NCBI RefSeq assembly: GCF_003576375.1
Contig: NZ_QWGE01000003.1
Coordinates: 682,001-746,000, forward strand
DNA length: 64,000 nucleotides
Direction: 5' to 3'
From: Pontibacter oryzae
Lineage (GTDB): Bacteria; Bacteroidota; Bacteroidia; Cytophagales; Hymenobacteraceae
Position 1 is the stretch's first letter; each line of letters starts with the position of its first letter. The notes below the pieces were generated by a model, which was not told the origin of the DNA, ran no database searches, and was given only the letters and a program-made list of their open reading frames with translations. Below are positions 1 to 64,000 of the stretch, piece after piece. A program made the translations under genes and the position numbers.

Positions 1-480
1 TGGTTAGGTAACCAATCTTACGTAGATAAAAACCGCATCGGTATCTGGGGCCACAGCTTTGGCGGCTACATGACGCTGCTGGGCCTTACCAAAGGCGAGG
101 GCGTGTTTAGAGCGGGTATCTCGGTGGCTCCGGTTACGAACTGGAGATTTTACGATACCATCTACACGGAGCGCTACCTGAAAACACCACAGGAAAATGC
201 TGCAGGGTATGATGATAACTCCCCGCTGTTCTTTGCCGACAAACTGAAGGGCGAGCTGCTGCTCATCCACGGTACCGGCGATGATAACGTGCACTTCCAA
301 AACGCAGTGGCCATGCAGGATGCCCTGATCGATGCCAACAAGCAGTTCGAGAGCTTTTACTACCCGAACCGTAACCACGGCATCTATGGAGGCAACACCT
401 ACATGCACCGCTTCACCATGATGACTGACTTCCTGGAGCGCAACCTGATCAACCCGAAAGGGGAATCTGTGAACCAGTAA
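1..480 (+). CDS. S9 family peptidase (DPP IV/prolyl oligopeptidase), C-terminal part
   Basis: This is the 3' end of a serine peptidase gene; the reading frame is open at base 1, so the beta-propeller and the start lie outside the window. The visible 159 residues are the end of the alpha/beta-hydrolase domain. All three catalytic positions are there: the nucleophile elbow GHSFGG (Ser near visible residue 19), the Asp in HGTGDDNVH (about residue 94) and the His in NRNHGI (about residue 126). GTGDDNVHFQ is typical of dipeptidyl peptidase IV-like S9B enzymes, which release dipeptides from peptides in the periplasm or at the outer surface. A strong terminator hairpin follows the stop. The family is clear; the exact subfamily cannot be fixed from the C-terminus alone. 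Confidence 0.9.
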   Translation, partial: WLGNQSYVDKNRIGIWGHSFGGYMTLLGLTKGEGVFRAGISVAPVTNWRFYDTIYTERYLKTPQENAAGYDDNSPLFFADKLKGELLLIHGTGDDNVHFQNAVAMQDALIDANKQFESFYYPNRNHGIYGGNTYMHRFTMMTDFLERNLINPKGESVNQ

Positions 481-496
481 GCATATCGTATAAACC

Positions 497-538
497 AAAG
501 TATAAAGGCCTGCCGGAAACGGTGGGCCTTTATACTTT
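497..538 (+). terminator. Hairpin terminator with AAGTATA arms
   Basis: A 14-bp stem is formed by AAAGTATAAAGGCC (497-510) and GGCCTTTATACTTT (525-538). Inside it is a second short stem, GCCG/CGGT, closed by a GAAA tetraloop. It sits 17 bp after the S9 peptidase stop, between that gene and the convergent RelA/SpoT-domain gene, so it may end transcription from both sides. The arms themselves are copies of the over-represented word AAGTATA. Confidence 0.8.
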
Positions 539-554
539 ACAAAGGATCTGAAAG

Positions 555-1409
555 CTACTGTTGCCTGCTTGCGCTGGAGATTAAAGTATAAAGCTGTTGT
601 TTTTCTGCTTGCGTAAGAGGCAGGTTGGCGAGCTGTGCATACAAGGCATCTAGGGCGGCCGGGTGCTTGCAGGAATGCAGCGCAATCGTAAGTTGGCGCA
701 TAAACGAGGCCATGGCATCGGACTGGCTGGTAAACCTGTTTAGTATTTGAAGCAGCAGGTTGGTAAGCTCGTTGTTGTTATGGTCGGGGTACCGCAGGCT
801 GTGGTCTATCTCGCTCCAACCTTCCTCAAACAAGGTGCGCAGCTGTATCTCGGCAAAGTATCGCTGCCTGCCCGGTTGGGTCTCTATCACAAAGTGCACA
901 GCCTTATATCCCGAAGGGTGCGGCATTATCTGGCAACCAAACCTCCCGAAAGTATGGGGCACTAGGTTGCTCTCGCTGCTAACCACATAGGCGTATGGCG
1001 GCCTTTTAAGCTGCCAATGCTTGTTTATGTAATGCCCGGTTTTTGCCCAGTGCCCCTTGTACAGGTGCAGTACCCGCATGCCTATCAGATCGTTAATCAG
1101 GTGCAGGTATGTATGGCGGTTAAAGTGGCGGTTTGGGTACTCCCGTTTCTTTCGGATGATCTTTTTGAGCAGGTGCTGTGGCTCTTTCACCCTGAATTTT
1201 ATACTATGCACATGGCTTGCTCCCTCCAGTATCCGGGAAATATAGATGGCTGTATCAGTGAGTTCGGCTTGCCTTTGTACATAGTCCTGGTAAATGGCCA
1301 GTAACTCGTGCGGGTTTATATGCAGTGCGCGCAGTTCCTGCTCACTTTTGTTAACAACGGAAAGTATGAATGATACAGTGGCGGTATGGGCAGGTTTGTG
1401 TTGGCGCAT
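555..1409 (-). CDS. Stand-alone RelA/SpoT-domain (p)ppGpp synthetase-like protein
   Basis: The 284-residue protein carries a RelA/SpoT nucleotidyltransferase domain in its middle: VKEPQHLLKKIIRK (about 73-86), DLIGMRVLHLYK (about 107-118), GYKAVHFVIE (about 167-176) and AEIQLRTLFEEGWSEIDHSLRY (cited in two parts: AEIQLRTLFE, EGWSEIDHSLRY; about 186-207). This family transfers pyrophosphate from ATP to GDP/GTP to make the alarmone (p)ppGpp. There is no N-terminal HD hydrolase domain and no TGS or ACT region, so it resembles a small alarmone synthetase (RelP/RelQ type), though with longer flanks than those usually have. Start is the ATG at 1409. It stands alone, facing the S9 peptidase. Domain assignment is firm; activity is inferred. 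Confidence 0.82.
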   Translation of the reverse strand: MRQHKPAHTATVSFILSVVNKSEQELRALHINPHELLAIYQDYVQRQAELTDTAIYISRILEGASHVHSIKFRVKEPQHLLKKIIRKKREYPNRHFNRHTYLHLINDLIGMRVLHLYKGHWAKTGHYINKHWQLKRPPYAYVVSSESNLVPHTFGRFGCQIMPHPSGYKAVHFVIETQPGRQRYFAEIQLRTLFEEGWSEIDHSLRYPDHNNNELTNLLLQILNRFTSQSDAMASFMRQLTIALHSCKHPAALDALYAQLANLPLTQAEKQQLYTLISSASRQQ

Positions 1410-1492
1410 TACAAGAGGGGTTTAGTATGGCCCTCCTGTAAATTATAATCCGTTTTGGGTGGAAATGTTGCGTAAAGGCGTAACTAGCTGGG

Positions 1493-2935
1493 TTATAGCT
1501 TTACGCAAACGTTTTGCGGCTCGGTAAAGAAGCGCAGCGCCTCAAACCCTCCTTCGCGGCCCACGCCGGAGCTTTTCATGCCGCCAAAGGGTGTGCGGAG
1601 GTCGCGCAGCAGCCAGGTGTTCACCCAAACAATACCGCTGTGCACCTGGTGCGCCACGCGGTGGGCGCGCTGCAGGTTCTGTGTCCAGATGGTGGCGGAG
1701 AGGCCGTAATCGGTACAGTTGGCATAGCGAATCACTTCCTCTTCAGAGTCGAAGGGCGTGAGCGTAACCACTGGGCCAAATATTTCCTCGGTGTTGGTGC
1801 GGCAATCTGGTAGCAGGCCCTCTATAACGGTTGGCGCTATAAACCAGCCGTTGGCGCAGCGGCCCTCAACCTGCACCTGGTGCCCACCGGTAAGTATGAT
1901 GCCGCCTTCCTGTTTTGCGAGCGCAATATAAGAAAGGACTTTTTGCATGTGCTGCTCCGACACCACAGCGCCCTGTTTGGTTCCGTCCTCCAGGGGGTCG
2001 CCTACGGTCAGTTTATTCACTTTATCCACAAAAGCCTGTTTAAACTGTTCATAAAGCGGCCGCTCCACAAAAATGCGAGAGCCGCATAGGCAGATCTGGC
2101 CCTGGTTGGCAAACGAGGAGTGGATAGAAGTATGAAGCGCGTTGTTAAAGTCGCAGTCCGCAAATATGATATTCGGGTTTTTTCCGCCCAGCTCCAGTGA
2201 GAGCTTTTTGAACATGGGTGCGGCCGTGGCGGCAATGCTACGGCCGGTTTTGGTGCCACCTGTAAAAGAGATAACAGGCACCTTAGGGTGCGAGACAATG
2301 GCTGCCCCCACTTTATGCCCATAGCCATGCACAATATTCAGTACGCCAGCCGGCAGGCCAGCTTCCATGCATAGCTCCGACAGCAGGTAGGCCGTCATGG
2401 GGGTTACTTCGGATGGTTTGGCCACTACGCAGTTGCCGGCGGCCAAGGCAGGCGCTATTTTCCAGGTGAACAAGTATAGCGGCAGGTTCCAGGGCGAGAT
2501 GCAGCCCGCCACGCCATGCGGGTGCCGCACGGTATAGTTAATGGCCTCGGTGCCCTCCATGTAATGCGCCTCTGAGGCAAAGTGCTGGATAGCGGTGCCG
2601 TAAAAGCGCATGTTGCTGCTAGCCCTCGGTATGTCTACGGTCTTGGCAAGTTTCAGCGGTTTGCCGTTGTCTATACTTTCGGCTTCGGCCAGGCGGTCCA
2701 GGTTCTGGTCTATCAGGTCGGCGATGCGCATCAGCAGCTGGCCGCGCTTTTCGGCTGGCGTTGCGGCCCATGCCGGAAAAGCAGCCTGTGCCGCCTTCAC
2801 TGCCTGCACCACATCCTGCTCATCCGAGTCGGGGATGTACGCGTAAAGCTCGCCGGTTGCCGGATTATAATTATCGATGTACTGCCCGGCAGTGGGTTCT
2901 ATCAATTGGCCGTTTATATAGTTCTGGAGCTTCAC
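1493..2935 (-). CDS. amnE: Aldehyde dehydrogenase, probable 2-aminomuconic 6-semialdehyde dehydrogenase
   Basis: A 480-residue NAD(P)+-dependent aldehyde dehydrogenase. Visible motifs are ISPWNLPLYLFTWKIAPALAAG split as ISPWNLPLY and KIAPALAAGN (cofactor site), FTGGTKTG, the general-base motif LELGGKNP and the nucleophile region NQGQICLCGSR, where the first Cys is the catalytic position. The ICLCGSR form is typical of 2-hydroxy/2-aminomuconic semialdehyde dehydrogenases rather than betaine aldehyde dehydrogenases. Its neighbours are 3-hydroxyanthranilate dioxygenase and ACMS decarboxylase, so oxidation of 2-aminomuconate semialdehyde to 2-aminomuconate is the likely step. The first codon is GTG at 2935 with no in-frame ATG just upstream. 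A short AT-rich repeat lies directly before it. Family is certain; substrate rests on context and motif. Confidence 0.85.
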   Translation of the reverse strand: MKLQNYINGQLIEPTAGQYIDNYNPATGELYAYIPDSDEQDVVQAVKAAQAAFPAWAATPAEKRGQLLMRIADLIDQNLDRLAEAESIDNGKPLKLAKTVDIPRASSNMRFYGTAIQHFASEAHYMEGTEAINYTVRHPHGVAGCISPWNLPLYLFTWKIAPALAAGNCVVAKPSEVTPMTAYLLSELCMEAGLPAGVLNIVHGYGHKVGAAIVSHPKVPVISFTGGTKTGRSIAATAAPMFKKLSLELGGKNPNIIFADCDFNNALHTSIHSSFANQGQICLCGSRIFVERPLYEQFKQAFVDKVNKLTVGDPLEDGTKQGAVVSEQHMQKVLSYIALAKQEGGIILTGGHQVQVEGRCANGWFIAPTVIEGLLPDCRTNTEEIFGPVVTLTPFDSEEEVIRYANCTDYGLSATIWTQNLQRAHRVAHQVHSGIVWVNTWLLRDLRTPFGGMKSSGVGREGGFEALRFFTEPQNVCVKL

Positions 2936-2941
2936 GGATGA

Positions 2942-2968
2942 GAAATGATGAATTAAGAGTTAAGAATT
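2942..2968. repeat. AT-rich short-unit repeat upstream of amnE
   Basis: The stretch reads as repeated GAATTAAGAGTTAAGAATT-type units and begins a few bases upstream of the amnE start. Similar low-complexity units sit at other gene borders in this window (4705, 22745, 40390, 42236). It is probably a degenerate remnant of the same class of intergenic element. Confidence 0.4.
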
Positions 2969-2980
2969 GTGAGGCATTTA

Positions 2981-3262
2981 TTAGCTTGAAAACCTGCGAC
3001 GTATGTGCTTAATTTGCTTAAGTATACCGTTCCTGAATGGTGCTAGCGAAACATGTACTATAACAAGCGATATAAAGAACTTAATGAATGAGGAGTAGTC
3101 AGGCGCAATATTAAAATGCTTATTCAGATACATCAGGAACACGGTAAGGTTCAGGCATATCATATGGAATACATATTCATCATTGCTTATACTGTACCAC
3201 TTCGATAAAAGAAAAATTGCTGCCAGAAAACCTCCATTAAATAATAGTGCCGCCAATAACAT
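2981..3262 (-). CDS. Small hypothetical membrane protein
   Basis: A 93-residue frame with ATG at 3262, lying 17 bp after the stop of the SDR gene and before amnE, all on the same strand. It has three hydrophobic stretches (about residues 2-19, 31-46 and 62-77), followed by a basic tail (KQIKHIRRR), which suggests a small inner-membrane protein with a cytoplasmic C-terminus. Composition is more AT-rich than the neighbours. I do not recognise a family. Position inside the kynurenine block suggests co-transcription but says nothing firm about function. It could also be a spurious frame, though the length, membrane pattern and fit between two genes argue for a real gene. Confidence 0.45.
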   Translation of the reverse strand: MLLAALLFNGGFLAAIFLLSKWYSISNDEYVFHMICLNLTVFLMYLNKHFNIAPDYSSFIKFFISLVIVHVSLAPFRNGILKQIKHIRRRFSS

Positions 3263-3279
3263 CTCTAAAACCTAATCAC

Positions 3280-4068
3280 CTACAAACACCCTGTTCGGCC
3301 ACCATCTACGGGCAGGTTCACGCCATTAATATACGCCGCTGCCGGCGATGCCAGGAACGCGGCTGCGGCGGCCACCTCTTCAGGGTCTGCAAAGCGGCGG
3401 GCTGGTATTTCGGATTCCATACTTTGCTGCACCTCGCGCGCACTCATCCCGGATTTCTGTGCCCGGCTTTCGATGATTGCCGTAATGCGGCCTGTGTGGG
3501 TAGAGCCCGGCAGCACGTTGTTTACTGTAATGCCGTATTGCCCCAGCTCGTTTGCCATGGTTTTGGCCCAGCTCGCTACGGCGCCACGGATGGTGTTAGA
3601 CACGCCTAGCCCATTAAGCGGCTGCTTTACCGAAGTGCTCACAATGTTAATGATGCGGCCATACTTGGCAGCCTTCATGTAAGGCAGCACGGCTTGCGTA
3701 AGCTGATGGTTATTGACCAAGTGCTGGTTAAAAGCATTTAAAAACTCTTCGGTATCAGCGTCTGCAATGGGGCCACCCGGAGGGCCTCCGGTATTGTTCA
3801 CCAGAATATGCACCTGTTGCAGCTCCTGCAGGCGCACGCGCACGGCCAGGTCTACCTCGTATGGGTTGCTGAAATCGGCCACTACATAATCATGGTGTTG
3901 GCCTTGCTCGCCATCCAGCTCCTGGAGCACGCGCTGTAGTTTACCCTCGTTTCGGGCTATAAGGGTGATGCTGGCGCCAAGCTGGGCCAGCTCCAGGGCT
4001 ACAGCTTTGCCAATGCCCTGTGTGCTGCCGCATACCAAGGCGCGTTTGTTCTTCAGGTTTAAGTCCAT
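3280..4068 (-). CDS. SDR-fold oxidoreductase lacking the canonical YxxxK pair
   Basis: A 262-residue short-chain dehydrogenase/reductase fold. The Rossmann start (VCGSTQGIGKAVALELAQLG, residues about 12-31), the NNTGG motif and the C-terminal GVNLPVDGG are all present. In the active-site helix, where classical enzymes read YSASK, this protein reads VSNTIRGAV, so both the catalytic Tyr and Lys are missing. This matches a known SDR subgroup resembling beta-ketoacyl reductases but lacking the full catalytic tetrad. It is read toward amnE and diverges from the HAAO/ACMSD pair, so a role in the kynurenine branch is possible but unproven. Start is the ATG at 4068. Confidence 0.82.
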   Translation of the reverse strand: MDLNLKNKRALVCGSTQGIGKAVALELAQLGASITLIARNEGKLQRVLQELDGEQGQHHDYVVADFSNPYEVDLAVRVRLQELQQVHILVNNTGGPPGGPIADADTEEFLNAFNQHLVNNHQLTQAVLPYMKAAKYGRIINIVSTSVKQPLNGLGVSNTIRGAVASWAKTMANELGQYGITVNNVLPGSTHTGRITAIIESRAQKSGMSAREVQQSMESEIPARRFADPEEVAAAAAFLASPAAAYINGVNLPVDGGRTGCL

Positions 4069-4182
4069 AGGTTAAATGTACGGAAATATGCTTAAAGATG
4101 TAAGGGGGCAACTAAGGTATAAACTATCATATATGCCGGCTTTTTCGTACTTTCATACTATTAACCAAGATATGCTACACGT

Positions 4183-4707
4183 ATGGCTATAAGCAGACCT
4201 TTCAACTTTAAGCAGTGGATAGATGAACACCGCCACTTGCTAAAACCGCCGGTAGGCAACCAGCAGGTATTTAAAGGCAACGACGATTTTATAGTGATGG
4301 TGGTAGGCGGACCTAACGCACGCAAGGATTACCATTATGACGAAGGTGAGGAGTTCTTCTACCAACTGGAAGGCGATATTGTGCTCAAGATAATTGAAGA
4401 CGGCAAGCCCGTAGATATTCCGATCAAGGAAGGGGAGATATTCCTGCTGCCGCCACGCGTGCCGCACTCGCCCCAACGCCCGGCCAATACGGTGGGGCTG
4501 GTAATGGAGCGCTACCGCAAGCCCGGCGAGAAAGACGGCTTCTTGTGGTTCTGCGAAAACTGCGGCAACAAGCTCTATGAAGAGTATGCCGACGTAACCG
4601 ACATTGTTGGACAGCTGCCTGTTATCATGGGCCACTTCTGGGATAGCCTGGAGCACCGCACCTGCAACAATTGCGCAACCGTTATGGAGCCACCGGCAAA
4701 GATGTAA
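4183..4707 (+). CDS. nbaC: 3-hydroxyanthranilate 3,4-dioxygenase
   Basis: A 174-residue cupin-fold, iron(II)-dependent ring-cleaving dioxygenase that turns 3-hydroxyanthranilate into 2-amino-3-carboxymuconate semialdehyde. The metal ligands fall exactly where expected for the bacterial enzyme: His51, Glu57 and His95. The bacterial rubredoxin-like C-terminal site is present too, with Cys124/Cys127 (FCENCG) and Cys161/Cys164 (CNNC). The next gene downstream on the same strand is the decarboxylase that uses its product. The stop codon merges with the left arm of an inverted-repeat element that separates the two. Start is the ATG at 4183. Assignment is very secure. Confidence 0.96.
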   Translation: MAISRPFNFKQWIDEHRHLLKPPVGNQQVFKGNDDFIVMVVGGPNARKDYHYDEGEEFFYQLEGDIVLKIIEDGKPVDIPIKEGEIFLLPPRVPHSPQRPANTVGLVMERYRKPGEKDGFLWFCENCGNKLYEEYADVTDIVGQLPVIMGHFWDSLEHRTCNNCATVMEPPAKM

Positions 4708-4893: not shown

Positions 4894-4908
4894 ACTTTAC
4901 CCTTTTGT

Positions 4909-5982
4909 ATGCCAGAAAGCAAACAGCCTATACTTACCGCCGACAAGCTGCTGAAGATAGACATCCATACGCATATCCTGCCTGCTACCTGGCCCAACCT
5001 GCGAGAGCGCTACGGCTATGGCGGGTTTGTACGGTTGGAGCACCATAAGCCTTGCTGTGCCCGCATGATGATGGATGACAAGTTCTTCCGGGAGATACAG
5101 GACAACTGCTGGGACCCACAAGTGCGCATGCACGAGTGTAGCCAGCACCGCGTTGGCGTGCAGGTGCTAAGCACAGTGCCCGTTATGTTTAACTACTGGG
5201 CCAAACCCGAGCATACGTACGACCTGTCACAGATCCTGAACGACCATATTGCTGGCATTGTGTATGACTACCCGGACCGCTTTGTGGGCCTGGGCACCTT
5301 GCCCATGCAAGCCCCCGACCTGGCCATTAAAGAACTGGAGCGCTGCATGAAGGAGTTGGGCATGGCCGGTGTGCAGATCGGTACGCACATCAACGACTGG
5401 AATCTGGAGGCACCGGAGCTTTTCCCGGTTTTTGAGGCGGCAGCAGAGTTGGGCGCGGCGGTTTTTGTGCACCCCTGGGATATGTATGGTAAGGAGAAAA
5501 TGAGCAAATACTGGCTGCCCTGGCTGGTAGGAATGCCCGCCGAAACAAGTATGGCTATCTGTTCTATGATCTTTGGCGGTGTGCTGGAGCGGCTGCCTAA
5601 CTTGCGGGTGGCGTTTGCCCATGGCGGAGGCTCTTTCCCGGCAACTATTGGCCGCATTGCCCACGGCTTTGAGGTGCGCCCCGACCTGTGCGCCATTGAT
5701 AACAACGTAAACCCCCGCGAGTACCTCGGCAAATTTTATCTCGACTCATTGGTGCACGACCCCGCCGCGCTGGAGTATCTGGTAAACTTGGTAGGCGCCA
5801 ACAGCATTGCCCTGGGCACCGATTACCCGTTTCCGCTTGGCGAGCTGGAGCCCGGCAAACTCATCGAATCTATGCCGTACGACCAAGCAACCAAAGAGCG
5901 TATGCTGAGCGGCACCGCGCTGGAGTGGTTAAACCTGAAAAAAGAGCGGTTTGTGCCTAAGCAGAAAAGCGAGAAAGTATAA
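4909..5982 (+). CDS. nbaD: 2-amino-3-carboxymuconate-6-semialdehyde decarboxylase (ACMSD)
   Basis: A 357-residue amidohydrolase-superfamily metalloenzyme. The N-terminal metal site HxH is at His20/His22 (DIHTHILP). Further ligand regions are VHPWDM, FAHGGGSFPATIGR and the terminal Asp in LGTDYPFP. ACMSD removes CO2 from the product of the preceding dioxygenase and so diverts carbon from quinolinate (NAD synthesis) to 2-aminomuconate semialdehyde, the substrate of the amnE-like gene at 1493-2935. Presence of ACMSD therefore marks this set as catabolic. The gene ends in KV-stop, and the stop codon lies inside a copy of AAGTATAA. Start is the ATG at 4909. Confidence 0.94.
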   Translation: MPESKQPILTADKLLKIDIHTHILPATWPNLRERYGYGGFVRLEHHKPCCARMMMDDKFFREIQDNCWDPQVRMHECSQHRVGVQVLSTVPVMFNYWAKPEHTYDLSQILNDHIAGIVYDYPDRFVGLGTLPMQAPDLAIKELERCMKELGMAGVQIGTHINDWNLEAPELFPVFEAAAELGAAVFVHPWDMYGKEKMSKYWLPWLVGMPAETSMAICSMIFGGVLERLPNLRVAFAHGGGSFPATIGRIAHGFEVRPDLCAIDNNVNPREYLGKFYLDSLVHDPAALEYLVNLVGANSIALGTDYPFPLGELEPGKLIESMPYDQATKERMLSGTALEWLNLKKERFVPKQKSEKV

Positions 5983-44478: not shown

Positions 44479-46149
44479 ATGAGCAACGAAACCATTATTT
44501 TCTCAATGGCTGGGGTAAGTAAGATTTACCCACCACAGAAACAAGTACTTAAAAATATTTATCTGTCTTTTTTCTACGGAGCTAAGATTGGCGTACTCGG
44601 CCTGAACGGCTCGGGTAAATCCAGCTTGCTAAAGATCATTGCTGGCGTTGATAAAGAGTTTCAGGGTGAGGTAGTTTGGTCGCCGGGTTACACGGTGGGC
44701 TACCTGGAGCAGGAGCCGCAACTAGACCCGACCAAGACTGTGCGTGAAGTAGTTGAGGAAGGCGTGAGCGAGGTAGTTGGTCTGTTGAAGGAGTTCGACG
44801 AGATCAACATGAAGTTTGGCGAGGAGATGACCGACGATGAGATGAACAAGCTCATCGAGCGCCAGGGTGAGGTGCAGGAGCGCCTGGACCAACTGAACGC
44901 CTGGGAACTGGATAACCGTCTGGAGCGCGCCATGGATGCCCTGCGTACCCCGCCAGAGGATGCCAAAATAGAGAACCTATCGGGTGGCGAGAAGCGCCGC
45001 GTAGCCCTGTGCCGCTTGCTGCTGCAGGAGCCAGACGTGCTATTGCTGGATGAGCCTACCAACCACTTGGACGCAGAATCGGTGGACTGGCTGGAGCAGC
45101 ACCTGAAGCAGTACAAAGGCACGGTAATCGCCGTAACTCACGACCGCTACTTCCTGGACAACGTAGCTGGCTGGATTTTGGAGCTGGACCGTGGCGAAGG
45201 CATTCCGTGGAAAGGTAACTACAGCAGCTGGCTGGATCAAAAGGCAAGCCGCCTGGCCCAAGAGGAGAAAACCGAAAGCAAGCGCCAGAAAACCCTGCAG
45301 CGCGAGCTGGAGTGGGTTAAAATGGCCCCGAAAGCACGCCACGCCAAATCGAAGGCGCGCCTTAGCCAGTACGACAAACTAGCCGGAGAGGAAGCTTCTC
45401 AGAAAGAAGAGAAACTGGAGCTGTTTATCCCGGATGGCCCGCGCCTTGGCTCGCAGGTAATCGAGGTGAACCATGTAAGTAAGGCATACGGCGATAAGCT
45501 GCTTTTCGAAGACCTTAACTTTGCATTGCCTCAGGGTGGTATTGTTGGTATCATTGGGCCGAACGGCGCTGGTAAAACCACGCTGTTTAAATTGATTACT
45601 GGCCAAGAGAAACCAGACGCTGGCGACTTTACTGTGGGCTCCACTGTGCAGATTTCTTACGTAGACCAGGAGCACGCGCAACTAGACCCGACCAAATCGG
45701 TGTTTGAGGTGATCTCGGGTGGCACAGAGCACATGATGATGGCTGGCCGCCAAGTGGTATCCCGCGCTTATGTGAGTAAGTTCAACTTCTCGGGCGGCGA
45801 CCAGGAGAAGAAGGTAGAAAAGCTGTCGGGTGGAGAGCGTAACCGCGTGCACCTGGCCATGACGCTGAAAGAAGGCGGTAACCTACTGCTGCTCGATGAG
45901 CCGACCAACGACCTGGACGTAAACGCGATCCGGGCGCTGGAAGATGCTTTGGAGAATTTTGCCGGCTGCGCCGTGATTATCTCTCACGACCGTTGGTTCC
46001 TGGACCGCATCTGTACGCACATTCTGGCTTTCGAGGGCGACTCGCAGGTGTACTGGTTCGAGGGTAACTACACAGAGTACGAGGAGAATAAGAAGAAGCG
46101 CATGGGCGACACAGAGCCGAAGCGTATCCGCTATAAGAAGCTAGTATAA
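44479..46149 (+). CDS. ettA: Energy-dependent translational throttle protein EttA
   Basis: A 556-residue ABC-F ATPase with two ATP-binding domains and no membrane part. Walker A motifs are [12 protein letters not shown] and [12 protein letters not shown]; signatures are [15 protein letters not shown] and [15 protein letters not shown]; Walker B regions are [14 protein letters not shown] and [14 protein letters not shown]. The inter-domain linker (about 240-320, rich in Lys/Arg/Glu) and [10 protein letters not shown] are typical EttA features. It binds the ribosomal E site and tunes early elongation to the ATP level. It has no AAGTATA word inside the gene except for CTAGTATAA at its stop. Start is the ATG at 44479. 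Confidence 0.96.
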
Positions 46150-46324: not shown

Positions 46325-47317
46325 ATGATCACATACCTAAAACACGAACAGCTGGATAAAGCCAAGTGGGATGCCTGCATCATGGCATCCGCTGATAACA
46401 TGGTGTATGCTCTGTCGTGGTTTCTGGATGTGGTGGCCCCGGCCTGGCAGGGTTTGGTAGAGGAACTTGGTGGTGCTTATGTGACGGTAATGCCGCTGCC
46501 AGGCATCACAAAAATGAGCTTTCCGTATCTGTCGCAGCCTTACCATACGCACCAGCTTGGCGTTTTTACCACTGCCCAAAGCAGTAGCGGCATCCGTAAG
46601 GAAATGCTGGAGCTAGCCGTAAAGCGCTTCCGGTTCATACATAACTATCGCTTCAACATGAGCGATACCTCCACGCTCGAAACGCTGCAGGGCAAGTATG
46701 AGTTAATAGGCCGCTATACCCGCTACCTTATACTTGATAAACCTTATCAGGCGCTCTATAAAAGCTATACCCGCGACCGCAAAATGAACCTGAAGCGGGC
46801 GCAGCGTGCCAACCTGAGCATGTTTGAGAGCGACGATATAGAACCGCTTATCCAGCATTTCAAAATCCATATAGAGCATAAGGTGGTAGGCGGCGTGGCT
46901 GAGAGCACCTACCAGATGCTGCGGGAGCTATTTAAAGTGATGCAGGAGAAAGGCGTTGCCCAACTCATTTATACTACGGCAGGCGGCGAGGTAAACGCTG
47001 GGTGCCTGTTCATAAAGTATAATGGCGTAATCAGCTATGCCTTTAACTCCGCAGACAGTGAGGGGCGTGTAACCAACGGGCGCACGCTGGTACTGGACGA
47101 GATCATCAGGCAGTATGCAGGCACCGGTTATACTTTGGATTTTGAGAGCCCCATGATCGAGCAGATTGACCATTTCTATGCCAGCTTCGGGGCGCATAAA
47201 GTTAAGTACTTCGCGCTGCGGCATAATGCGCTGCCGTTCTATGTAAAGGTTGTCCGGGCTATCCGGATGAAAGTATACCGTGCCCTGTTCGCGTCAGGCG
47301 TTGCGGAAGAAGTATAA
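46325..47317 (+). CDS. FemAB/Acetyltransf_6-like acyltransferase, first of a tandem pair
   Basis: A 330-residue GNAT-superfamily protein of the FemAB/CelD-like type. The N-terminal half starts LDKAKWDACIMASADNMVYA and SWFLDVVAPAWQGLV. The second half carries the FemAB-like acyl-transfer domain: YTRDRKMNLKRAQRANLSMF, IEHKVVGGVAESTYQMLREL, GGEVNAGCLFIKYNGVISYA and DFESPMIEQIDHFYASFGA. Related proteins add amino acids or acyl groups to cell-wall or polysaccharide precursors, or remain unnamed. The next gene is a clear paralogue starting 5 bp after this stop. The last codons are GAAGAAGTATAA, so the stop lies within the repeated word. Confidence 0.75.
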   Translation: MITYLKHEQLDKAKWDACIMASADNMVYALSWFLDVVAPAWQGLVEELGGAYVTVMPLPGITKMSFPYLSQPYHTHQLGVFTTAQSSSGIRKEMLELAVKRFRFIHNYRFNMSDTSTLETLQGKYELIGRYTRYLILDKPYQALYKSYTRDRKMNLKRAQRANLSMFESDDIEPLIQHFKIHIEHKVVGGVAESTYQMLRELFKVMQEKGVAQLIYTTAGGEVNAGCLFIKYNGVISYAFNSADSEGRVTNGRTLVLDEIIRQYAGTGYTLDFESPMIEQIDHFYASFGAHKVKYFALRHNALPFYVKVVRAIRMKVYRALFASGVAEEV

Positions 47318-53246: not shown

Positions 53247-55655
53247 TTACAGTTTAAACTCTAGGGTAACATAGTAGCTGCGGGCATCCGAAGGGATAAT
53301 GCCGGGGCCAGGGTATCCTGTGGCACGGCGCGTAAAGTAGCGGTTATCCGTCAGGTTGTTGATGCCGGACTCCAGCGTGAAGCGCTTATATGTATAGCTT
53401 CCCGAAAGGTCCATAACCCAGTACGCCGGTATTTTGCCCACCACGGCGGTTGGCTCCAGTATTGAGTTTTCCGCATCGGTGTATTGCTCCGAAGTATAGC
53501 TGTATTGGTAGGCCAGCTTAAAGTTGTTGCGCTTGAAAGCCAGGCCGGCCTTGGCGATGAGCGCTGGGGCCAGCTCCACCTGGTTGCCGTCTACGGTCTT
53601 GTCCGGGGAGCTATACACCGTATGCACCAGCGTAATGTTGGAGAAGGCCGAGAGGCTGGATGGGTGCTCCGCGCCATAGTATAGTTTCAGGAGGTCAGCC
53701 TCCGCGAAGGTTTCCAGGCCGTAATGGTACGAGTCGCCGATGTTGGTGCGGATGCGGTCTGTGGTGCCCTGTATTTTTTTAAAGTTAATGCGGTCTTTAT
53801 AAGCCAGGTAAAACAGGCTGGCATCATAGTTCAGCAGGCCGCTCTTATTGCCGCGCAAGCCCAGGTCGGCACTGTAGCCGCTCTCGTCCTGCAAGTTTTG
53901 GTCTGGTACCACATTAGGGTTTACCACGCGCATATCGTTAAAGTTGATGGCGCGGTAGTTCTGCGAAAAGTTGGCGTATACTTCCATCGCATCGCTGGCT
54001 TTATAGCTCAGGCCTAGGCCCATCAGAAACACATGGCGGGTATTGCTGCGTTCTTCCGGCACCACTTCATCATATACAACGTTACCTGCCTGGTCCTTTT
54101 TCTGGTCTCGGTAGCTGCCATCGGCATTGGTGTTAATCCACTCGTAGCGCAGGCCAGGGGTAATACTTAGCTTTGGGGTGATGTTAAAGATATTCTCGGC
54201 AAAAAGAGCTGTGTTCTGGCTCAAGTAGTCGTAGCTGGAGGTGTTCGGGCCGTTAACCTCGGTGTAATAATTAAAGTCAGCGTTAGAGGCCACAGAGCCA
54301 TCGCCCTGCTGTTGGTCGGTAAAGCCACGGTAATAGCGCCCGCCTACTAACAGCGTGGAGAAAGAGTTGCCTAGGTCGTAGCGGTGGATGAGGCGCGTTT
54401 CGTTGCCCACGTTCCGGAACTTATCCTGCAGTAGTGTGCGGGGCGCGGTCAGGTCGTCGGGGCGGTTTATCTTGCCCATGTAGCCTAAGGCATCACGCTG
54501 GGCAAGTAAACCGAAATTGCGCACGTTCAGCTTGGTGCGTTCGGCCAAGCGATAGTCCAGCGTTAGGGCCAGCAGGTTCCAGTTCACCTTAAACCAGTTT
54601 CGGTCACGCTTCGATTGTTGCGCATCCTGGTTAAACTCAAGGTCAGTTAAGCCGCCGGGTTGCTGGGCCAGGTAATCCATGTACGTATAATCAAAGCCTA
54701 TTTCCAGTTTAGAGTTTGGCTTGTAGTGTACTGAGCTAAAAGCAGTATGTGCCTCAAATCCAGAATTATCGCGCCAGCCGTCGCCGCGCTTGTACTGGTA
54801 GTAGCCATAGTAGTGCAAATTACCCTTTGTGCCGCCAATGCTGTTAAAGGAATTAAAGAGGCCCCAGGAGCCAGCGGTCTGTCGGGTTGTCAATTCAAAG
54901 GGTTTATCCTCCGGGCCTTCTTTCATTACAAAGTTAACCATGCCGCCAAACTGCGTGCCGTACTGCAGGGATGCCGCGCCGCGCACCACCTCTATGCGGT
55001 CCAGTGCCTCGGTAGGCGGGGTGTAGTAGCTTTCGGGGTAGCCGAGCGCATCAGCCGAAATATCGTAGCCGTTTTGGCGCGTGTTAAAGTTGGATGTGCG
55101 GTTAGGGCTAAGGCCGCGGCCCCCAATGCCAAGCTGAATGCCGGCTCCATCGCTTTCCCAGATGTTAAGGCCGGCCACCTTGGCAAACACTTGCCGGCTG
55201 TTGTTGGTGGCTTTGTTGGCTGTAACATCACTGAGCACCACTACCTCGCTTTTCTTTCCTTCGTAGATAGCAGCACCCTCCACAGAATTGAGGCGGGTAA
55301 TACCAAAGGTTTTTTCGCGCTCGCCCTTCACATTTACCTCGCGGAGTTTGCCTTCCAGGGGCTTCAGTTCAAAGTGAAGTATGGCGTTGCCATTGCGGAT
55401 GCTAACCTGCTGCGTAGCCGAGCCCCAGCCAACGCTATAGGCCGTTAAAGTATAGGTGCCGGGCACCAAGCCGTCTATAGTATAAGCTCCTTTGGAATCA
55501 GCCTTTACCAGCATGCCGGTATTGGTTAACAAGACCTCAGCCTGCGTCACAGGCTTTTGGCTGCCAGCGCTGGTTATGTTGCCGGAAACGGAAAAGGTCT
55601 GGGCCACAGCAGACAGGCTGCAAAGTATGAGGGCAATTATAAACGTAACGCGCAT
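53247..55655 (-). CDS. FecA-like TonB-dependent receptor
   Basis: An 802-residue outer-membrane receptor, last gene of a leftward four-gene operon. It has a signal peptide (ending SAVAQ), a carboxypeptidase-regulatory-like domain (about 20-110: VSGNITSAGSQKPVTQAEVL), a plug domain and a 22-strand barrel ending ARSYYVTLEFKL. The plug block GLNIWESDGAGIQLGIGGRG with SPNRTSNFNTRQNGYDISAD matches FecA-type ferric citrate receptors. It would move iron chelates or a similar ligand across the outer membrane using the TonB system. It starts 6 bp after the HTTM gene, so it is co-transcribed with it. Start is the ATG at 55655. Confidence 0.92.
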   Translation of the reverse strand: MRVTFIIALILCSLSAVAQTFSVSGNITSAGSQKPVTQAEVLLTNTGMLVKADSKGAYTIDGLVPGTYTLTAYSVGWGSATQQVSIRNGNAILHFELKPLEGKLREVNVKGEREKTFGITRLNSVEGAAIYEGKKSEVVVLSDVTANKATNNSRQVFAKVAGLNIWESDGAGIQLGIGGRGLSPNRTSNFNTRQNGYDISADALGYPESYYTPPTEALDRIEVVRGAASLQYGTQFGGMVNFVMKEGPEDKPFELTTRQTAGSWGLFNSFNSIGGTKGNLHYYGYYQYKRGDGWRDNSGFEAHTAFSSVHYKPNSKLEIGFDYTYMDYLAQQPGGLTDLEFNQDAQQSKRDRNWFKVNWNLLALTLDYRLAERTKLNVRNFGLLAQRDALGYMGKINRPDDLTAPRTLLQDKFRNVGNETRLIHRYDLGNSFSTLLVGGRYYRGFTDQQQGDGSVASNADFNYYTEVNGPNTSSYDYLSQNTALFAENIFNITPKLSITPGLRYEWINTNADGSYRDQKKDQAGNVVYDEVVPEERSNTRHVFLMGLGLSYKASDAMEVYANFSQNYRAINFNDMRVVNPNVVPDQNLQDESGYSADLGLRGNKSGLLNYDASLFYLAYKDRINFKKIQGTTDRIRTNIGDSYHYGLETFAEADLLKLYYGAEHPSSLSAFSNITLVHTVYSSPDKTVDGNQVELAPALIAKAGLAFKRNNFKLAYQYSYTSEQYTDAENSILEPTAVVGKIPAYWVMDLSGSYTYKRFTLESGINNLTDNRYFTRRATGYPGPGIIPSDARSYYVTLEFKL

Positions 55656-55661
55656 CAGATA

Positions 55662-58229: not shown

Positions 58230-58259
58230 GAGGATATATTGCTTTTTAAACGAGAAAGG

Positions 58260-58301
58260 CAGCAGCCCGGGATAGATGAACCCCAAGCTGCTGCGTCTGC
58301 T
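58260..58301 (-). other. Intra-operon hairpin
   Basis: GCAGCAGC (58260-58267) pairs with GCTGCTGC (plus side 58287-58294 region), with GGG/CCC pairing inside. It lies in the 103-bp gap between the DUF4856 and imelysin genes and has no T-run. It may stabilise the mRNA or limit readthrough and so set the ratio of the first gene to the rest. Confidence 0.45.
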
Positions 58302-58332
58302 TTATTGCTCTCTAAAATCTGCGGCTGCTTGC

Positions 58333-59439: not shown

Positions 59440-59482
59440 AGGTATTTTATCTCTTTATTTAGACTGATTTAAAATAGTGATG

Positions 59483-59513
59483 CAAAGCTAAAAGGCTATT
59501 CTAATCTAGGCAA
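59483..59513 (-). promoter_or_regulatory. Promoter of the DUF4856-imelysin-HTTM-receptor operon
   Basis: On the minus strand TTG (plus 59511-59513) and TAGCTTTG (plus 59483-59490) are separated by exactly 20 bp, an excellent match to the Bacteroidota -33/-7 promoter. The predicted transcript start is about 35-40 bp before the ATG at 59439. Confidence 0.75.
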
Positions 59514-59516
59514 GCT

Positions 59517-59539
59517 TTATTTGGAATAATTTTAAATAA
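59517..59539 (-). promoter_or_regulatory. 23-bp dyad next to the operon promoter, possible Fur-type operator
   Basis: The sequence TTATTTGGAATA (59517-59528) continues ATTTTAAATAA; it is an inverted repeat of form TTATTTnnAAT-n-ATTnnAAATAA with only two unpaired base pairs per arm. It ends 4 bp upstream of the -33 box. AT-rich dyads of this size are typical of Fur-family sites, and the operon encodes a FecA-like receptor, so iron control is plausible. TATACAGTGTATA (59543-59555) is a second small dyad beside it. The remaining divergent region up to 59717 must also serve the protease gene. Confidence 0.5.
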
Positions 59540-59717
59540 GCTATACAGTGTATAAACATTGACCTAGATGCACCGGATGACTATGCAGCGCCAGTCGCAA
59601 CTTTAACAATTTTGAATTTGTATAGATATAGGGCACCTCAGTATATTTAAGGTAAATTACCGTACTGCATGCCGGCCCCTTGCTGTGCCGGCTCACCAAA
59701 CAAATCAGAATAAAACT

Positions 59718-61379
59718 ATGGATATGATGGAGAAAGAGGACGAGAGAGATAAGATCCGAAACTCACCATTTCAGATAAAATTGCCATTTATTATAGGTAT
59801 GGCGCTTGTAATAGGCGTGTTGCTGGGAGCCACAACCTTCTCTCCATCGCCCAATAACCCACAGGGCACAGCCAAAAGTTACCTGAAGTTCAGGGATATA
59901 CTAAGCTATATAGACCGCGATTACGTGGACACTGTGGATATTGAGGAACTTACTGACTTCGCAATCACTGAAATGCTGGAAAAGCTAGACCCGCACACAG
60001 CCTACATTCCTGCTGACGAGCTGGCCATGGCACGGTCCTACCTAGAGGGCGACTTTGAAGGCATCGGTATTGAGTTTAATATCTTTAAAGACACCATTTA
60101 TGTGATAACGCCCCTGAGCGGCGGCCCTTCCGAGGCGGCAGGCATACAGGCTGGCGATAAAATCATTAAAGTGAACCAGGAGAATGTAGCCGGCATAGGC
60201 ATTAACAACGAAGGAGTGTTTAAGCGCCTGCGCGGGAGAAAAGGCACCCAGGTAAACCTGACTATACTTCGCAAAGCGCTTAAAAAGCCGCTGAACTTTA
60301 CGATTGAGCGTAGCAAGATCCCGACTTACTCCGTGGATGTGAGCTATATGGTAGATAAGAAGACGGGCTATATTAAGGTGAGCCGCTTCTCGGCCAATAC
60401 CTACGAGGAGTTTAAGGAAGCGCTGGTAAGCCTGAAAGGAAAAGGGCTGGAGCAACTTATACTGGACTTGCGCGGCAACCCTGGCGGTTACATGGACCAC
60501 GCCATCCGCATGGCTGATGAGTTTATCTCTGGCGATAAGCTGATCGTGTATACCGATGGCAAAGGTAACAAGTATGATTCCAAGACATTTGCCGAGCGCC
60601 GCGGTATTTTCGAGAACGGCCCGCTGATCGTGCTGCTGGACGAAGGCAGCGCCTCGGCCTCCGAAATTGTGGCCGGTGCCCTGCAGGACAATGATCGTGC
60701 CCTGATTGTGGGCCGCCGCTCATTTGGCAAAGGCCTGGTGCAAATGCCGATCCCGCTAAACGATGGCTCTGAGCTGCGTCTCACCATCTCGCGCTACTAT
60801 ACACCAAGTGGCCGCTCCATTCAAAAGCCATATACCCACGGCGCGGAAGACTACCAGATGGATATTCTGAACCGCTTCGAGAACGGCGAGTACTTCCACC
60901 CCGATAGCAGCCTGTTTGTGGACTCTCTGAAGTATAAAACCCTGAAGGGGCGCGCCGTGTATGGCGGCGGCGGCATTATGCCCGATGTGTTTGTGCCCCG
61001 CGATACCACAGAGCTATCCGAGTACCTGAGCCAGCTGTATAACAAGAACATTATCCGGGAGTATACTTTATCATACTACCAAAAGCATAAAAAGGAGCTT
61101 GAGAAAATGCCTTTCGAGAAGTTCCAGAAGAGCTTTGAGGTAACCGAGAACATGCTGCAGGAAGTTGTTAAAATGGCGCGTGCCTCGGGGGTAGAGTACA
61201 ACGATGCGCAGTTCAAACGATCCAAAAACCTGCTACGCAACAACCTGAAAGCCTTTATTGGCCGAAGCGTGTATGGCAATGCTGGCTTCTTCCCGGTGCT
61301 GCACGAGTCGGACGAAGAGTTTCAGCAGGCCCTGAAGTACTTCAGCCGGGCAGGCAAGCTGGCGGCAGGCAATATGTAA
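59718..61379 (+). CDS. S41-family C-terminal processing peptidase
   Basis: A protein of about 553 residues, with a cytoplasmic start, a membrane anchor (FIIGMALVIGVLLGATTF), a PDZ domain (about 95-175, GIGIEFNIFKDTIYVITPLS and AAGIQAGDKIIKVN) and the S41 protease core. The Ser of DEGSASASEIVAGAL and the Lys of GRRSFGKGLVQ form the Ser/Lys dyad. It trims C-termini of envelope proteins in the periplasm. A C-terminal extension of about 140 residues follows, as usual in Bacteroidota. The ATG at 59718 (MDMMEKED) is preferred over a GTG at 59685. It is divergent from the uptake operon. Confidence 0.92.
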   Translation: MDMMEKEDERDKIRNSPFQIKLPFIIGMALVIGVLLGATTFSPSPNNPQGTAKSYLKFRDILSYIDRDYVDTVDIEELTDFAITEMLEKLDPHTAYIPADELAMARSYLEGDFEGIGIEFNIFKDTIYVITPLSGGPSEAAGIQAGDKIIKVNQENVAGIGINNEGVFKRLRGRKGTQVNLTILRKALKKPLNFTIERSKIPTYSVDVSYMVDKKTGYIKVSRFSANTYEEFKEALVSLKGKGLEQLILDLRGNPGGYMDHAIRMADEFISGDKLIVYTDGKGNKYDSKTFAERRGIFENGPLIVLLDEGSASASEIVAGALQDNDRALIVGRRSFGKGLVQMPIPLNDGSELRLTISRYYTPSGRSIQKPYTHGAEDYQMDILNRFENGEYFHPDSSLFVDSLKYKTLKGRAVYGGGGIMPDVFVPRDTTELSEYLSQLYNKNIIREYTLSYYQKHKKELEKMPFEKFQKSFEVTENMLQEVVKMARASGVEYNDAQFKRSKNLLRNNLKAFIGRSVYGNAGFFPVLHESDEEFQQALKYFSRAGKLAAGNM

Positions 61380-61534
61380 GTATATGTTGGCTAAAATAAC
61401 CTTCGGCTACTAGGTTTATACTTATTGATTAACTTTTGATTGAACGTACGGGAACTGGGCAGTGTAAAAGGCCACGTGCCTGATGCCCTGTACTTTCAGC
61501 TCCAAACCCAACGACACCTTAAAACTAATCATAC

Positions 61535-62740
61535 ATGGCCTATTACTATAAACTCGGGGAGGTGCCACACAAGCGGCACACGCAGTTCCGGCAACCCGAC
61601 GGCAGCTTATACGCAGAGCAGCTGGTGGGCACGCTGGGCTTTAGCGGCGTTTCGTCTTTGCTGTACCATATTAACCCGCCCACGCAGATCAGCCGCATCG
61701 GGGAGCCCAGGCCTTATGCGCCAAAGCGTGCCGAGGGCGTAAAGCTGGCGCCGCAGCACCTGCGCACCGTAGAGGTAAACGCCACCGGCCCCGACTACCT
61801 GAGCGCCCGCAAAACCATGCTCTTTAACAACGATGTGGCCATCAGCCTTTGCAACCCCTCGGAGCAGGAAATGGACTATTACTATAAAAACGCCCAGGCC
61901 GATGAAGTAGTGTTTGTGCACGACGGAACCGGCGACCTGCTTACCCAGATGGGCCGCATCCCGTTTGGCCCCGGCGACTACCTGGTTATCCCGCGCACCG
62001 TTATCCATAAATTCCGCTTCGATAAGAGCGAGAACCAGGTAAGGCTGCTGGTAATAGAGTCTTTCAGCCCGATAGAAACGCCTCGCCGCTACCGCAATCA
62101 CTTTGGCCAACTGCTGGAGCACTCCCCATTCTGTGAGCGCGACATGCGCCCACCCGTGGAGCTCAACACCGAAACCGGCCCGGGCGAGCGGCTGGTACAA
62201 GTAAAGAAAGAAGGCGAGCTGCACCAGTTTTACTATAACTTCAGCCCTTTCGATGCTGTGGGCTGGGATGGCTATTTCTACCCCTACGCGTTCAACATCA
62301 AGGATTTTGAGCCGATTACCGGCCGCATACACCAGCCGCCTCCCGTGCACCAGACCTTCGAGGCGCATAACTTCGTGATCTGCTCGTTTGTGCCGCGCCT
62401 CTTCGATTACCACCCGCTGTCCATCCCTGCGCCCTACAATCACTCCAACGTAGACTCCGATGAGGTGCTATACTATGTGGAGGGCAACTTTATGAGCCGC
62501 AAAGGCGTGGACCGGGGTTCGTTTACCATCCACCCAGGAGGAATTCCGCACGGGCCGCACCCGGGTACCGTGGAGGCAAGTATTGGCAAGAAGGAAACCG
62601 AGGAGTATGCCGTGATGGTAGACACCTTCAAGCCACTACACTTAACCGTGGACGCGCTACCTTACCTGGACGAAAACTACCCGATGAGCTGGAACGAGCA
62701 CGGCACTGGAAACGTGCGCAAAGGAGATATGTTTGACTAA
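61535..62740 (+). CDS. hmgA: Homogentisate 1,2-dioxygenase
   Basis: A 401-residue cupin dioxygenase that opens the ring of homogentisate, the central intermediate of tyrosine and phenylalanine breakdown, to maleylacetoacetate. Motifs YYYKLGEVPHKRHTQFR, PFAFNIKD-like (FYPYAFNIKDFEPITGRIHQ), YHPLSIPAPYNHSNVDSDEV (His and Glu iron ligands) and HPGGIPHGPHPGT are diagnostic. Length is slightly shorter than the eukaryotic enzyme, as in related bacteria. No fumarylacetoacetase or 4-hydroxyphenylpyruvate dioxygenase is in the window. Start is the ATG at 61535, after 155 bp with no other gene. Confidence 0.95.
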   Translation: MAYYYKLGEVPHKRHTQFRQPDGSLYAEQLVGTLGFSGVSSLLYHINPPTQISRIGEPRPYAPKRAEGVKLAPQHLRTVEVNATGPDYLSARKTMLFNNDVAISLCNPSEQEMDYYYKNAQADEVVFVHDGTGDLLTQMGRIPFGPGDYLVIPRTVIHKFRFDKSENQVRLLVIESFSPIETPRRYRNHFGQLLEHSPFCERDMRPPVELNTETGPGERLVQVKKEGELHQFYYNFSPFDAVGWDGYFYPYAFNIKDFEPITGRIHQPPPVHQTFEAHNFVICSFVPRLFDYHPLSIPAPYNHSNVDSDEVLYYVEGNFMSRKGVDRGSFTIHPGGIPHGPHPGTVEASIGKKETEEYAVMVDTFKPLHLTVDALPYLDENYPMSWNEHGTGNVRKGDMFD

Positions 62741-62835
62741 ACTGCTTCTAGTTTTGTAACTTGCGGCGGGAGAGAAGGTGCTCAGGTGCTGGTATCTCTC
62801 GCCGCAATTGTTTTTCACCCTTATATAATTTTACA

Positions 62836-63369
62836 ATGATGATGAGAAGAGTAGCAATGGCTGTAGTAATGATGGTAGCCCTGGCAGCAGTAGCCTGTGA
62901 CAAGATTGATGACCTGCTGACCTTCTACATAAACGAAGAGGAAACTTTTACAATTGAGTCGGACTTTCCATTGGGCGTGCTAGTGCCGGCCACACCGTTT
63001 ACGATCACTACTAACTCCGAGGAGAAATTCAAGAACAACAAGACCCGTGCTGAACTGGTAAAGGATGTTACCCTGAACAGACTCTCGCTAAAAGTTACGG
63101 ACCCGGAAGGACAGAATTTTGATTTCCTGGAGCGAATCGAGCTATACATTTCCAGCGAGGATGAACCGGAAGTAAAGATTGCTTATCTGGATGCAGTGCC
63201 GGAAGGCCAGACAGAACTAACCTTAGAGTCTACCAACGCCAAGCTGGATAAGTACATTAAAGGAGATAGTTATACTATCAGAACCAAAGCAGCGCTCAGA
63301 AAAGCCATATCAAAGGATATTACTATTAAAGCCGACATGCGCTTTAAAGTAACCGCAGATCCGTTATAA
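62836..63369 (+). CDS. Small hypothetical lipoprotein
   Basis: A protein of about 177 residues with a lipobox (ALAAVACDKID, Cys about 19). The mature part is a beta-sandwich-like domain: TFTIESDFPLGVLVPATPFT, DVTLNRLSLKVTDPEGQNFD, FLERIELYISSEDEPEVKIA and ITIKADMRFKVTADPL. No named family is recognised. The frame runs open to 62761, but the ATG at 62836 gives a proper signal peptide and is preferred. The GroES-fold gene begins one base after the stop, so the two are co-transcribed and likely translationally coupled. Confidence 0.78.
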   Translation: MMMRRVAMAVVMMVALAAVACDKIDDLLTFYINEEETFTIESDFPLGVLVPATPFTITTNSEEKFKNNKTRAELVKDVTLNRLSLKVTDPEGQNFDFLERIELYISSEDEPEVKIAYLDAVPEGQTELTLESTNAKLDKYIKGDSYTIRTKAALRKAISKDITIKADMRFKVTADPL

Positions 63370-63370
63370 G

Positions 63371-63763
63371 ATGCATACGTTACAAATGAGGATTTCAGAA
63401 GATAATAAGTTAGAGAAGATCATCATAGTAGGCGACCGCGTGCTCATAAAGCCCAAAACCGCCCGCGACCAAACCAAGACTGGTTTATACTTGCCGCCTG
63501 GCGTGCAGGAAAAAGAAAAGGTGCAGGAAGGCTATATTATGAAAGTGGGCCCAGGCTACCCGATTCCGGCAGACTTCGGCTACGATGAGGAATCGTGGGG
63601 GCAGGAGGAGGAAGAGGTGCGCTACATCCCGCTTCAGGCAAGAGAAGGCGACTTGGCCATTTACCTGCAGCGCGATGCCATTGAGATCAACTACCTCGGC
63701 GAGAAATACTTTATCGTGCCGCAGTCGGCAGTGCTGATGCTGGTGCGTGAAGAAGATCTTTAG
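63371..63763 (+). CDS. GroES-fold (Cpn10-like) protein with an acidic insert
   Basis: A 130-residue protein with the Cpn10 beta-barrel pattern: IIIVGDRVLIKPKTARDQTK, TGLYLPPGVQEKEKVQEGYI, MKVGPGYPIPADFG, then REGDLAIYLQRDAIEINYLG and EKYFIVPQSAVLML. The mobile loop region near residues 33-45 is present (ARDQTKTGLYLPP). An acidic insert (YDEESWGQEEEEV, about 71-83) sits where true GroES is short. No groEL is nearby, so this is a GroES-family paralogue rather than the co-chaperone. It follows the lipoprotein gene by one base. A strong terminator follows. Start is ATG 63371 or, less likely, 63386. Confidence 0.85.
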   Translation: MHTLQMRISEDNKLEKIIIVGDRVLIKPKTARDQTKTGLYLPPGVQEKEKVQEGYIMKVGPGYPIPADFGYDEESWGQEEEEVRYIPLQAREGDLAIYLQRDAIEINYLGEKYFIVPQSAVLMLVREEDL

Positions 63764-63781
63764 CCAGCAAGTCATTTATGC

Positions 63782-63821
63782 AAAAAGGCCATACTTGCAG
63801 TGTTGCAAGTATGGCCTTTTT
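63782..63821 (+). terminator. Intrinsic terminator at the window end
   Basis: AAAAAGGCCATACTTGCA (63782-63799) pairs perfectly with TGCAAGTATGGCCTTTTT (63804-63821) around GTGT. Both arms contain the AAGTATG/CATACTT word. Downstream sequence to 64000 shows no gene; a 12-bp palindrome ATGTTTAAACAT occurs near 63925-63936. Confidence 0.92.
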
Positions 63822-64000
63822 GTGTTTGGGGAAGTTTGTAACGAAAGGTGTAATCCAGCAATAATTCAGCGTGTGATTATCAGATTTCATACTTTAGTGA
63901 TATAAACCAGTAGCACCTCAAGACATGTTTAAACATTAAAAAAATAGTGTCCTCCAGAAGCAACTTTTGCCTTTGGTGCTGCATCTATTATATCACGTAC

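Follow-up and report, generated by a model that had tools for sequence, protein, structure and literature searches.

The stretch analyzed in this work (hereinafter, the window) comprises 64,000 nucleotides, positions 682001-746000 of contig C3 of the Pontibacter oryzae genome (G000; 4,227,908 bases in 9 contigs). A simple longest-open-reading-frame rule predicts 56 genes (56,307 bp) within it, and copies of the heptamer AAGTATA (TATACTT on the complementary strand), together with those of its variant AAGTATG, are dispersed across the entire stretch from position 1 to 64000. The spelling of this genome-wide word of seven to eight letters differs between the branches of the genus Pontibacter, whose members are environmental bacteria. 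These dialects are new, and no report of the word, or of transformation in Pontibacter, was found in the open-access literature, in agreement with an earlier note on this DNA, made from its letters alone, which knew of no described role. As argued below, the word may serve as a DNA-uptake label.

Abundance of the word in the window and in its genome

An exact count on both strands gave 127 copies of AAGTATA in the window, 74 on the forward and 53 on the reverse strand, versus 7.0 expected from base composition and 11.3 from an order-2 Markov model. The massive over-representation claimed in the earlier note is thereby borne out, and its hand tally (about 120 heptamers and about 155 AGTATA) came close to the exact numbers, AGTATA being present 164 times; AAGTATG/CATACTT was counted 54 times and the reversed word TATAAGT 14 times. 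A maximal-order Markov model yields 111 AAGTATA, a circular value, since this model is built from the word's own 6-mers. The codon-preserving control suggested in the same note gave a clear result: the predicted genes contain 84 coding copies, as compared with a mean of 11.6 (standard deviation 3.3, maximum 22) in 300 synonymous-codon shuffles. An artefact of codon usage or of Markov background is thus rejected by the excess over both the order-2 model and the shuffles. Nor is the excess limited to the window, as was revealed by counts in the whole genome (4.23 Mb), where the extended form AAGTATAA occurs 3,503 times versus 134 for the reversed word, and in twenty 20-kb stretches of it, where 669 AAGTATA were observed versus 80.6 expected.

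Placement of the 127 window sites (83 inside genes, 39 between genes and 5 straddling gene borders) showed no preference for orientation: 38 of the genic sites lie on the strand of the gene and 45 on the opposite one, with all three reading frames used. Strand bias along replication, which the earlier note had proposed to map, was also absent as judged by GC skew, with 266 copies on the G-rich strand versus 259 on the other one in the 16 of the 20 stretches with an absolute skew over 0.01, the sign of the skew being only a proxy for the direction of replication. The ATA codons, which the note had linked to the word, mostly lie outside it, since only 32 of the 268 ATA codons in the window genes fall wholly within a copy. 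The longest gap free of both AAGTATA and AAGTATG in the sampled stretches of the genome was 3.7 kb.

Dialects in Pontibacter and maintenance of the word in place

The dialects were called from word counts with no preset word, at 19 named loci and then in 50 Pontibacter genomes, each sampled over at most 20 kb around comEC, with other stretches added for some. AAGTATA (A dialect) was found in 19 genomes, AGGTATA (G dialect) in 12, AACTATA (C dialect) in four, and A and C together in another four (G027, G033, G065 and G071); the remaining labels were GGTATRR in one genome (G036), a weak TATATAG in one (G069) and none in nine. The dialects share a STAT core, which is lacking in the weak TATATAG of G069. 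The word AGGTAGAG, considered as a dialect of G028, turned out to be a local 8-bp tandem array (L230, around 1150-1212), and this genome was relabelled ‘none’.

The consensus is sharp, the heptamer reaching 9-15 times expectation and most of its single mismatches dropping to 1-2 times. One-mismatch neighbours in the A dialect stay at 0.7-2.3 times expectation, except for AAGTATG (4-5 times); in the G group the exception is GGGTATA (4 times). Beyond the heptamer the flanks show little except one base on each side. The extended A form, AAGTATAA, reaches 16 times its expected number in P. oryzae itself and 22 times in 18 further A genomes; for AGGTATAG and AACTATAG, the extended forms of other dialects, the factors are 35 and 47, respectively. 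More than 2,200 copies of AAGTATAA were counted in 18 of 37 genomes of the genus, and no excess of it in 22 genomes of other families; more than 2,800 copies of AGGTATAG were found in 12 of the 50 genomes and at most 833 in the other 38, AAGTATAA amounting to 276-453 copies in nine of these 12. A residue of the words persists in genomes called as having no dialect: AAGTATA and AGGTATA occur 34 and 33 times in G007 (11.6 and 12.3 expected, respectively), and the pooled excess of dialect words in the nine genomes is 1.5-2.2-fold. The same nine genomes are larger, with a median of 5.8 versus 4.6 Mb (p 1.9e-5, uncorrected and computed from rounded sizes); a link between genome size and dialect absence is not supported, as the tree offers too few independent pairs.

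On the tree of a single gene, ComEC, on which the dialect phylogeny rests, the labels need 10 changes (9 with G028 relabelled) versus 27.6 in shuffles, none of 200 shuffles being as low. The AGGTATA genomes fall into a single branch (93/99); those with AACTATA are united only weakly (80/16), inside a well supported group (100/100), which also holds three of the four mixed A and C genomes. The AAGTATA label needs 4 changes; since it is widely spread, A is presumably the older spelling. A survey of 241 genomes of the order, which detects only spellings fitting the pattern ARSTATAR, yielded ratios of this pattern to the reversed one of 5.7-15.8 for four of the six Pontibacter genomes drawn (5.8 in P. 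oryzae); G025, with no dialect, and G069 gave 2.0 and 1.2, respectively. The ratio did not exceed 1.3 in any of 23 genomes from the family's other genera, nor 2.4 in the remaining 212; for such spellings, strong excess is thus confined to Pontibacter. No comparable dispersed word was seen in 20-kb samples of other genera, these samples being small and some of them dominated by local repeats.

At orthologous positions, where the earlier note had proposed to look for conservation, the word is better kept than its surroundings. In all 50 ordered species pairs the word positions were better conserved than the flanks. Intact copies made up 48-77% of alignable AGGTATA sites versus 19-33% for permuted words (20 ordered pairs), and 27-75% of alignable AAGTATA sites versus 3-40% (30 ordered pairs), the single AAGTATA pair with no advantage being mangrovi to the window (both 0.28). 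Moreover, some sites of one dialect carry the word of the other. Of 2,068 comparisons of AAGTATA sites with the G group, 9.2% show AGGTATA, versus 2.4% of 1,814 comparisons with eight no-dialect genomes; AGGTATA sites correspond to AAGTATA in 7.1% of 2,809 comparisons with A genomes, versus 2.2% of 1,190. Because genomes recur among them, these comparisons lack independence, and the control words (17 and 10) do not suffice as a reference. When three mixed genomes are compared with C genomes, 12.4% of 193 AAGTATA sites correspond to AACTATA; for the fourth, G071, AACTATA was outside the nine commonest forms (55 comparisons). Orthologous positions hold many substituted forms, varying at every position of the word, and no single mutational precursor was seen among either the replacement words or the mismatch neighbours. 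Gaps spanning the whole word are scarce at the alignable sites, the only ones covered: 4 occur among the replacements listed in one comparison, and they make up 0.8% of 4,894 in another. Thus, the word arises in place by mutation and not by insertion, as uptake sequences do.

Competence genes and a putative uptake label

ComEC (PF03772) and DprA (PF02481) were found in all 50 Pontibacter genomes, broken copies in G022 and G009 included. The same is true of a gene for a ComEA-like protein of about 315 amino acids with three HHH_3 stretches, which scores over the cut-off of the NCBIfam model of the ComEA helix-hairpin-helix (HHH) region; its frame is open (304-346 amino acids) in 49 genomes and broken in G022. 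In the latter genome comEC, dprA and the ComEA-like gene all carry frame changes and stops, at three separate loci (C1:2771217, C1:4158575 and C1:2078296; L229, L314 and L313, respectively). Compared with G000, all 15 other matched frames in the dprA region are clean. For the HHH region, comparison with G023 gave 7 clean frames of 7, and that with G070 showed stops in 4 of 10 other frames, some of these being probably antisense frames. Near comEC, stops occur in 1 of 7 (G070) or 2 of 7 (G023) other frames, the reference frames there running from stop to stop, so that stops ahead of the start are expected. In G009 comEC and dprA are broken. All 7 other frames around its dprA are clean, but several frames near comEC and the ComEA-like gene also carry stops; the state of its ComEA-like gene is uncertain (one stop in one analysis, an open frame of 304 amino acids in another). 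NamZ/DUF1343 is intact in all 50 genomes, G022 and G009 included. We read the co-broken competence genes as the loss of one putative working unit, which would point to present or recent competence in the other members of the genus.

Thousands of copies, clade-specific dialects with a shared core, origin in place and the presence of competence genes are features that the Pontibacter word shares with uptake sequences. With moderate confidence we favor the interpretation that it is a putative label, read by the natural-transformation machinery and kept by preferential uptake. A protein of the Bacteroidota transformation machinery would recognize the word in outside DNA, the labelled fragments would be taken up and recombined preferentially, and alleles spelling the word by mutation would spread in this way; upon drift of the reader's specificity a new spelling would accumulate and the old one decay. 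Among the roles listed in the earlier note, uptake is now the best supported because of the clade-specific dialects, the partial in-place swaps, the maintenance, the absence of strand bias and the conserved competence gene set, whereas a simple mutational trace is disfavored, since the mismatch neighbours stay near expectation and the replacement words differ at every position, and a polar Chi-like recombination signal is disfavored by the lack of strand bias. In two proteobacterial families, which both possess type IV pilus machinery, uptake words are established and are read through type IV pilins. By analogy, the word would work like a DNA uptake sequence (DUS); we do not file this putative label as a DUS or an uptake signal sequence (USS), because the pilus feature was looked for with PF00437 and not found. 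A wider proposal, namely that Pontibacter, in a phylum with no established uptake word, performs sequence-specific uptake without a type IV pilus, that at least three spellings exist in the genus with a change of dialect under way in the mixed A and C genomes, and that the word acts as an interspecies recombination barrier, appears to us about evenly balanced.

Comparison with known systems reveals both likenesses and differences. The DUS dialects of Neisseriaceae similarly consist of thousands of short-word copies with spellings that track phylogeny and share a core, one genome carrying two dialects and some genomes of the family none (PMC3630211); in contrast, Pontibacter belongs to Bacteroidota, its word has 8 letters instead of 10-12, and no pilus ATPase was found. 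Two subclade-specific spellings also exist for the USS of Pasteurellaceae, where competence genes are conserved with sporadic recent defects, but this USS has 9 letters with AT-rich flanking repeats and its uptake was demonstrated (PMC1626085), whereas the flanks in Pontibacter are nearly plain and uptake is a proposed role. Highly iterated palindrome 1 (HIP1) of cyanobacteria is likewise a short word present in very many copies, and certain lineages have lost it or carry other words in its place (PMC4390886); unlike the non-palindromic Pontibacter word, for which no methyltransferase link appeared in the one class tested, it comprises GC-rich palindromes tied to methyltransferases. Within Bacteroidota, transformation of Riemerella anatipestifer needs ComEC, DprA, an HHH protein, all of which have counterparts in Pontibacter, and unknown outer-membrane proteins (PMC8459023), and a preference for its own DNA is reported for R. 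columbina (PMC7965970). No clear uptake word is known for Riemerella, and its type of outer-membrane transformation proteins was not found in Pontibacter. Uptake bias has been argued to be the drive behind uptake words (PMC1939737).

A number of results weigh against the uptake interpretation. The type IV pilus machinery with a word-reading pilin, a feature of known uptake systems, was not revealed by the PF00437 search: no full-length pilus ATPase was found in the 50 genomes (pilins and secretins were not searched), and the matches were partial and low-scoring, over the cut-off in three of 50 genomes, the one scanned being a helicase. No reader protein was identified among the candidates examined (PF00437, PF01555, DUF5689 and the ComEA-like protein). 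The ComEA-like protein is conserved in 15 aligned sequences with nothing obviously dialect-linked. DUF5689, chosen after a Riemerella protein, occurs in 22 of 50 genomes with a distribution that does not match the dialects; 12 of these proteins have 413-450 amino acids, with neighbours that by eye look polysaccharide-utilization-like, and 10 have about 1,100-1,300. The nine no-dialect genomes retain comEC, dprA and the ComEA-like gene, and the reader must therefore be different from them or have lost its specificity. The density of the word in spacers is 1.7-6.3 times that in genes, and lends no support, because control words rise about as much. The Riemerella k-mer table shows A/T-rich words only (PMC7965970).

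Decay of the word after competence loss was not established either. The density in G022 (461 per Mb) is the second lowest of the 16 A genomes counted (449-1,472), and its sites are still kept above control (0.360 versus 0.241), the ratio of 1.49 comparing with 1.73-1.89 in four genomes at similar loci and 1.19-1.66 in seven others. In G009 no reduction in density is seen (1,096 per Mb), and the lowest value (449 per Mb) belongs to G020, the competence genes of which look intact; with G020 as target, conservation was 0.228 versus 0.232 for control in the comEC region and 0.279 versus 0.221 in a later comparison. A link between competence and the word is thus suggested, at most.

The word could instead be the binding site of an abundant chromosome-organizing or nucleoid protein with clade-drifted specificity. 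Such a protein would account for the even coverage, without gaps above 3.7 kb, and for the occurrence on both strands, in all frames and in genes and spacers alike; the dialects and in-place swaps fit any drifting reader, and a palindromic form, AAGTATACTT, is frequent, with 31 copies in 484 kb. Considering, however, how abruptly the excess falls from the heptamer (9-15 times) to most single mismatches (1-2 times), and that nine of 50 genomes of the genus manage without any dialect, we regard this explanation as unlikely. A HIP-like origin, in which DNA methylation and biased repair create and keep the word, as proposed for HIP1, would be in line with the replacement of HIP words in some lineages matching their methyltransferases (PMC4390886). 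It conflicts with the non-palindromic nature of AAGTATA, AAGTATACTT being a minority (31 copies among 835 heptamers in the same 484 kb), and with the replacements differing at every position and not at one precursor. Beta-class methyltransferases (PF01555), the only class searched, are absent from the P. oryzae genome and the four C genomes and present in 31 of 50 genomes; altogether, such an origin seems unlikely as well. The least probable explanation, to be given very little weight, is a Chi-like signal for a recombination exonuclease: a short, non-palindromic, genome-wide word could indeed co-evolve with its enzyme, but known Chi words are oriented and sparser, whereas the Pontibacter word has no strand bias with respect to either GC skew (266 versus 259, 16 of 20 stretches) or genes (38 versus 45), and some Pontibacter species lack it.

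If the word is indeed an uptake label, sequence-specific uptake would have evolved once more, in Bacteroidota and with a different machine, its word being split into dialects. The fifty species, with their several spellings, mixed and wordless genomes and two natural competence-gene losses, would provide material on the origin, switching and decay of such words. Should this interpretation be wrong, a drifting genome-wide word of such density still needs explaining.

Individual sites and other repeats

Two copies of the word facing each other, at 498 on the forward and 531 on the reverse strand, lie in the arms of a terminator-like hairpin (498..537), the terminator function being predicted from its sequence. 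Sequence inspection revealed a second hairpin at 63790..63813 with variant arms, CATACTT (63790) and AAGTATG (63807). The placement of the word at three stop codons, reported in the earlier note, holds for two forward-strand genes, those ending at 5982 (AAGTATA at 5975..5981) and at 47317 (47310..47316); the third one, ettA (44479..46149, forward strand, named by an E. coli match), has at its stop codon only AGTATA, as TAGTATA (46143..46148, forward strand), and no heptamer. The absence of heptamers inside ettA was confirmed.

Two features seen in the window were not clearly borne out elsewhere. The scarcity of the word in divergent spacers (1 site in 1,812 bp of the window) shrank in larger samples and was absent in the G dialect, and the preferred direct spacing of 19-24 bp was not clearly reproduced in a larger sample. 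In the G-dialect loci AGGTATA is directly repeated every 6 bp in small tandem runs (32 neighbour pairs in 352 kb). In G020 (C1:1944098-1946633), AGGTATAG occurs about forty times at intervals of 64-69 bases, resembling an array of clustered regularly interspaced short palindromic repeats (CRISPR). Strongly repeated words in other Bacteroidota samples, namely L263 (G039), L262 (G038), L079 (Niastella) and L087, probably represent repeat arrays, AGTACTCC being found 217 times within 20 kb of G039. Finally, an 802-amino-acid protein encoded in the window (53247-55655) looks like the large chain of ribonucleotide reductase. Its best matches are in Pontibacter contigs, with 85% identity to P. anaerobius, and only 27 of the 50 genomes of the genus contain a counterpart at E 1e-100.

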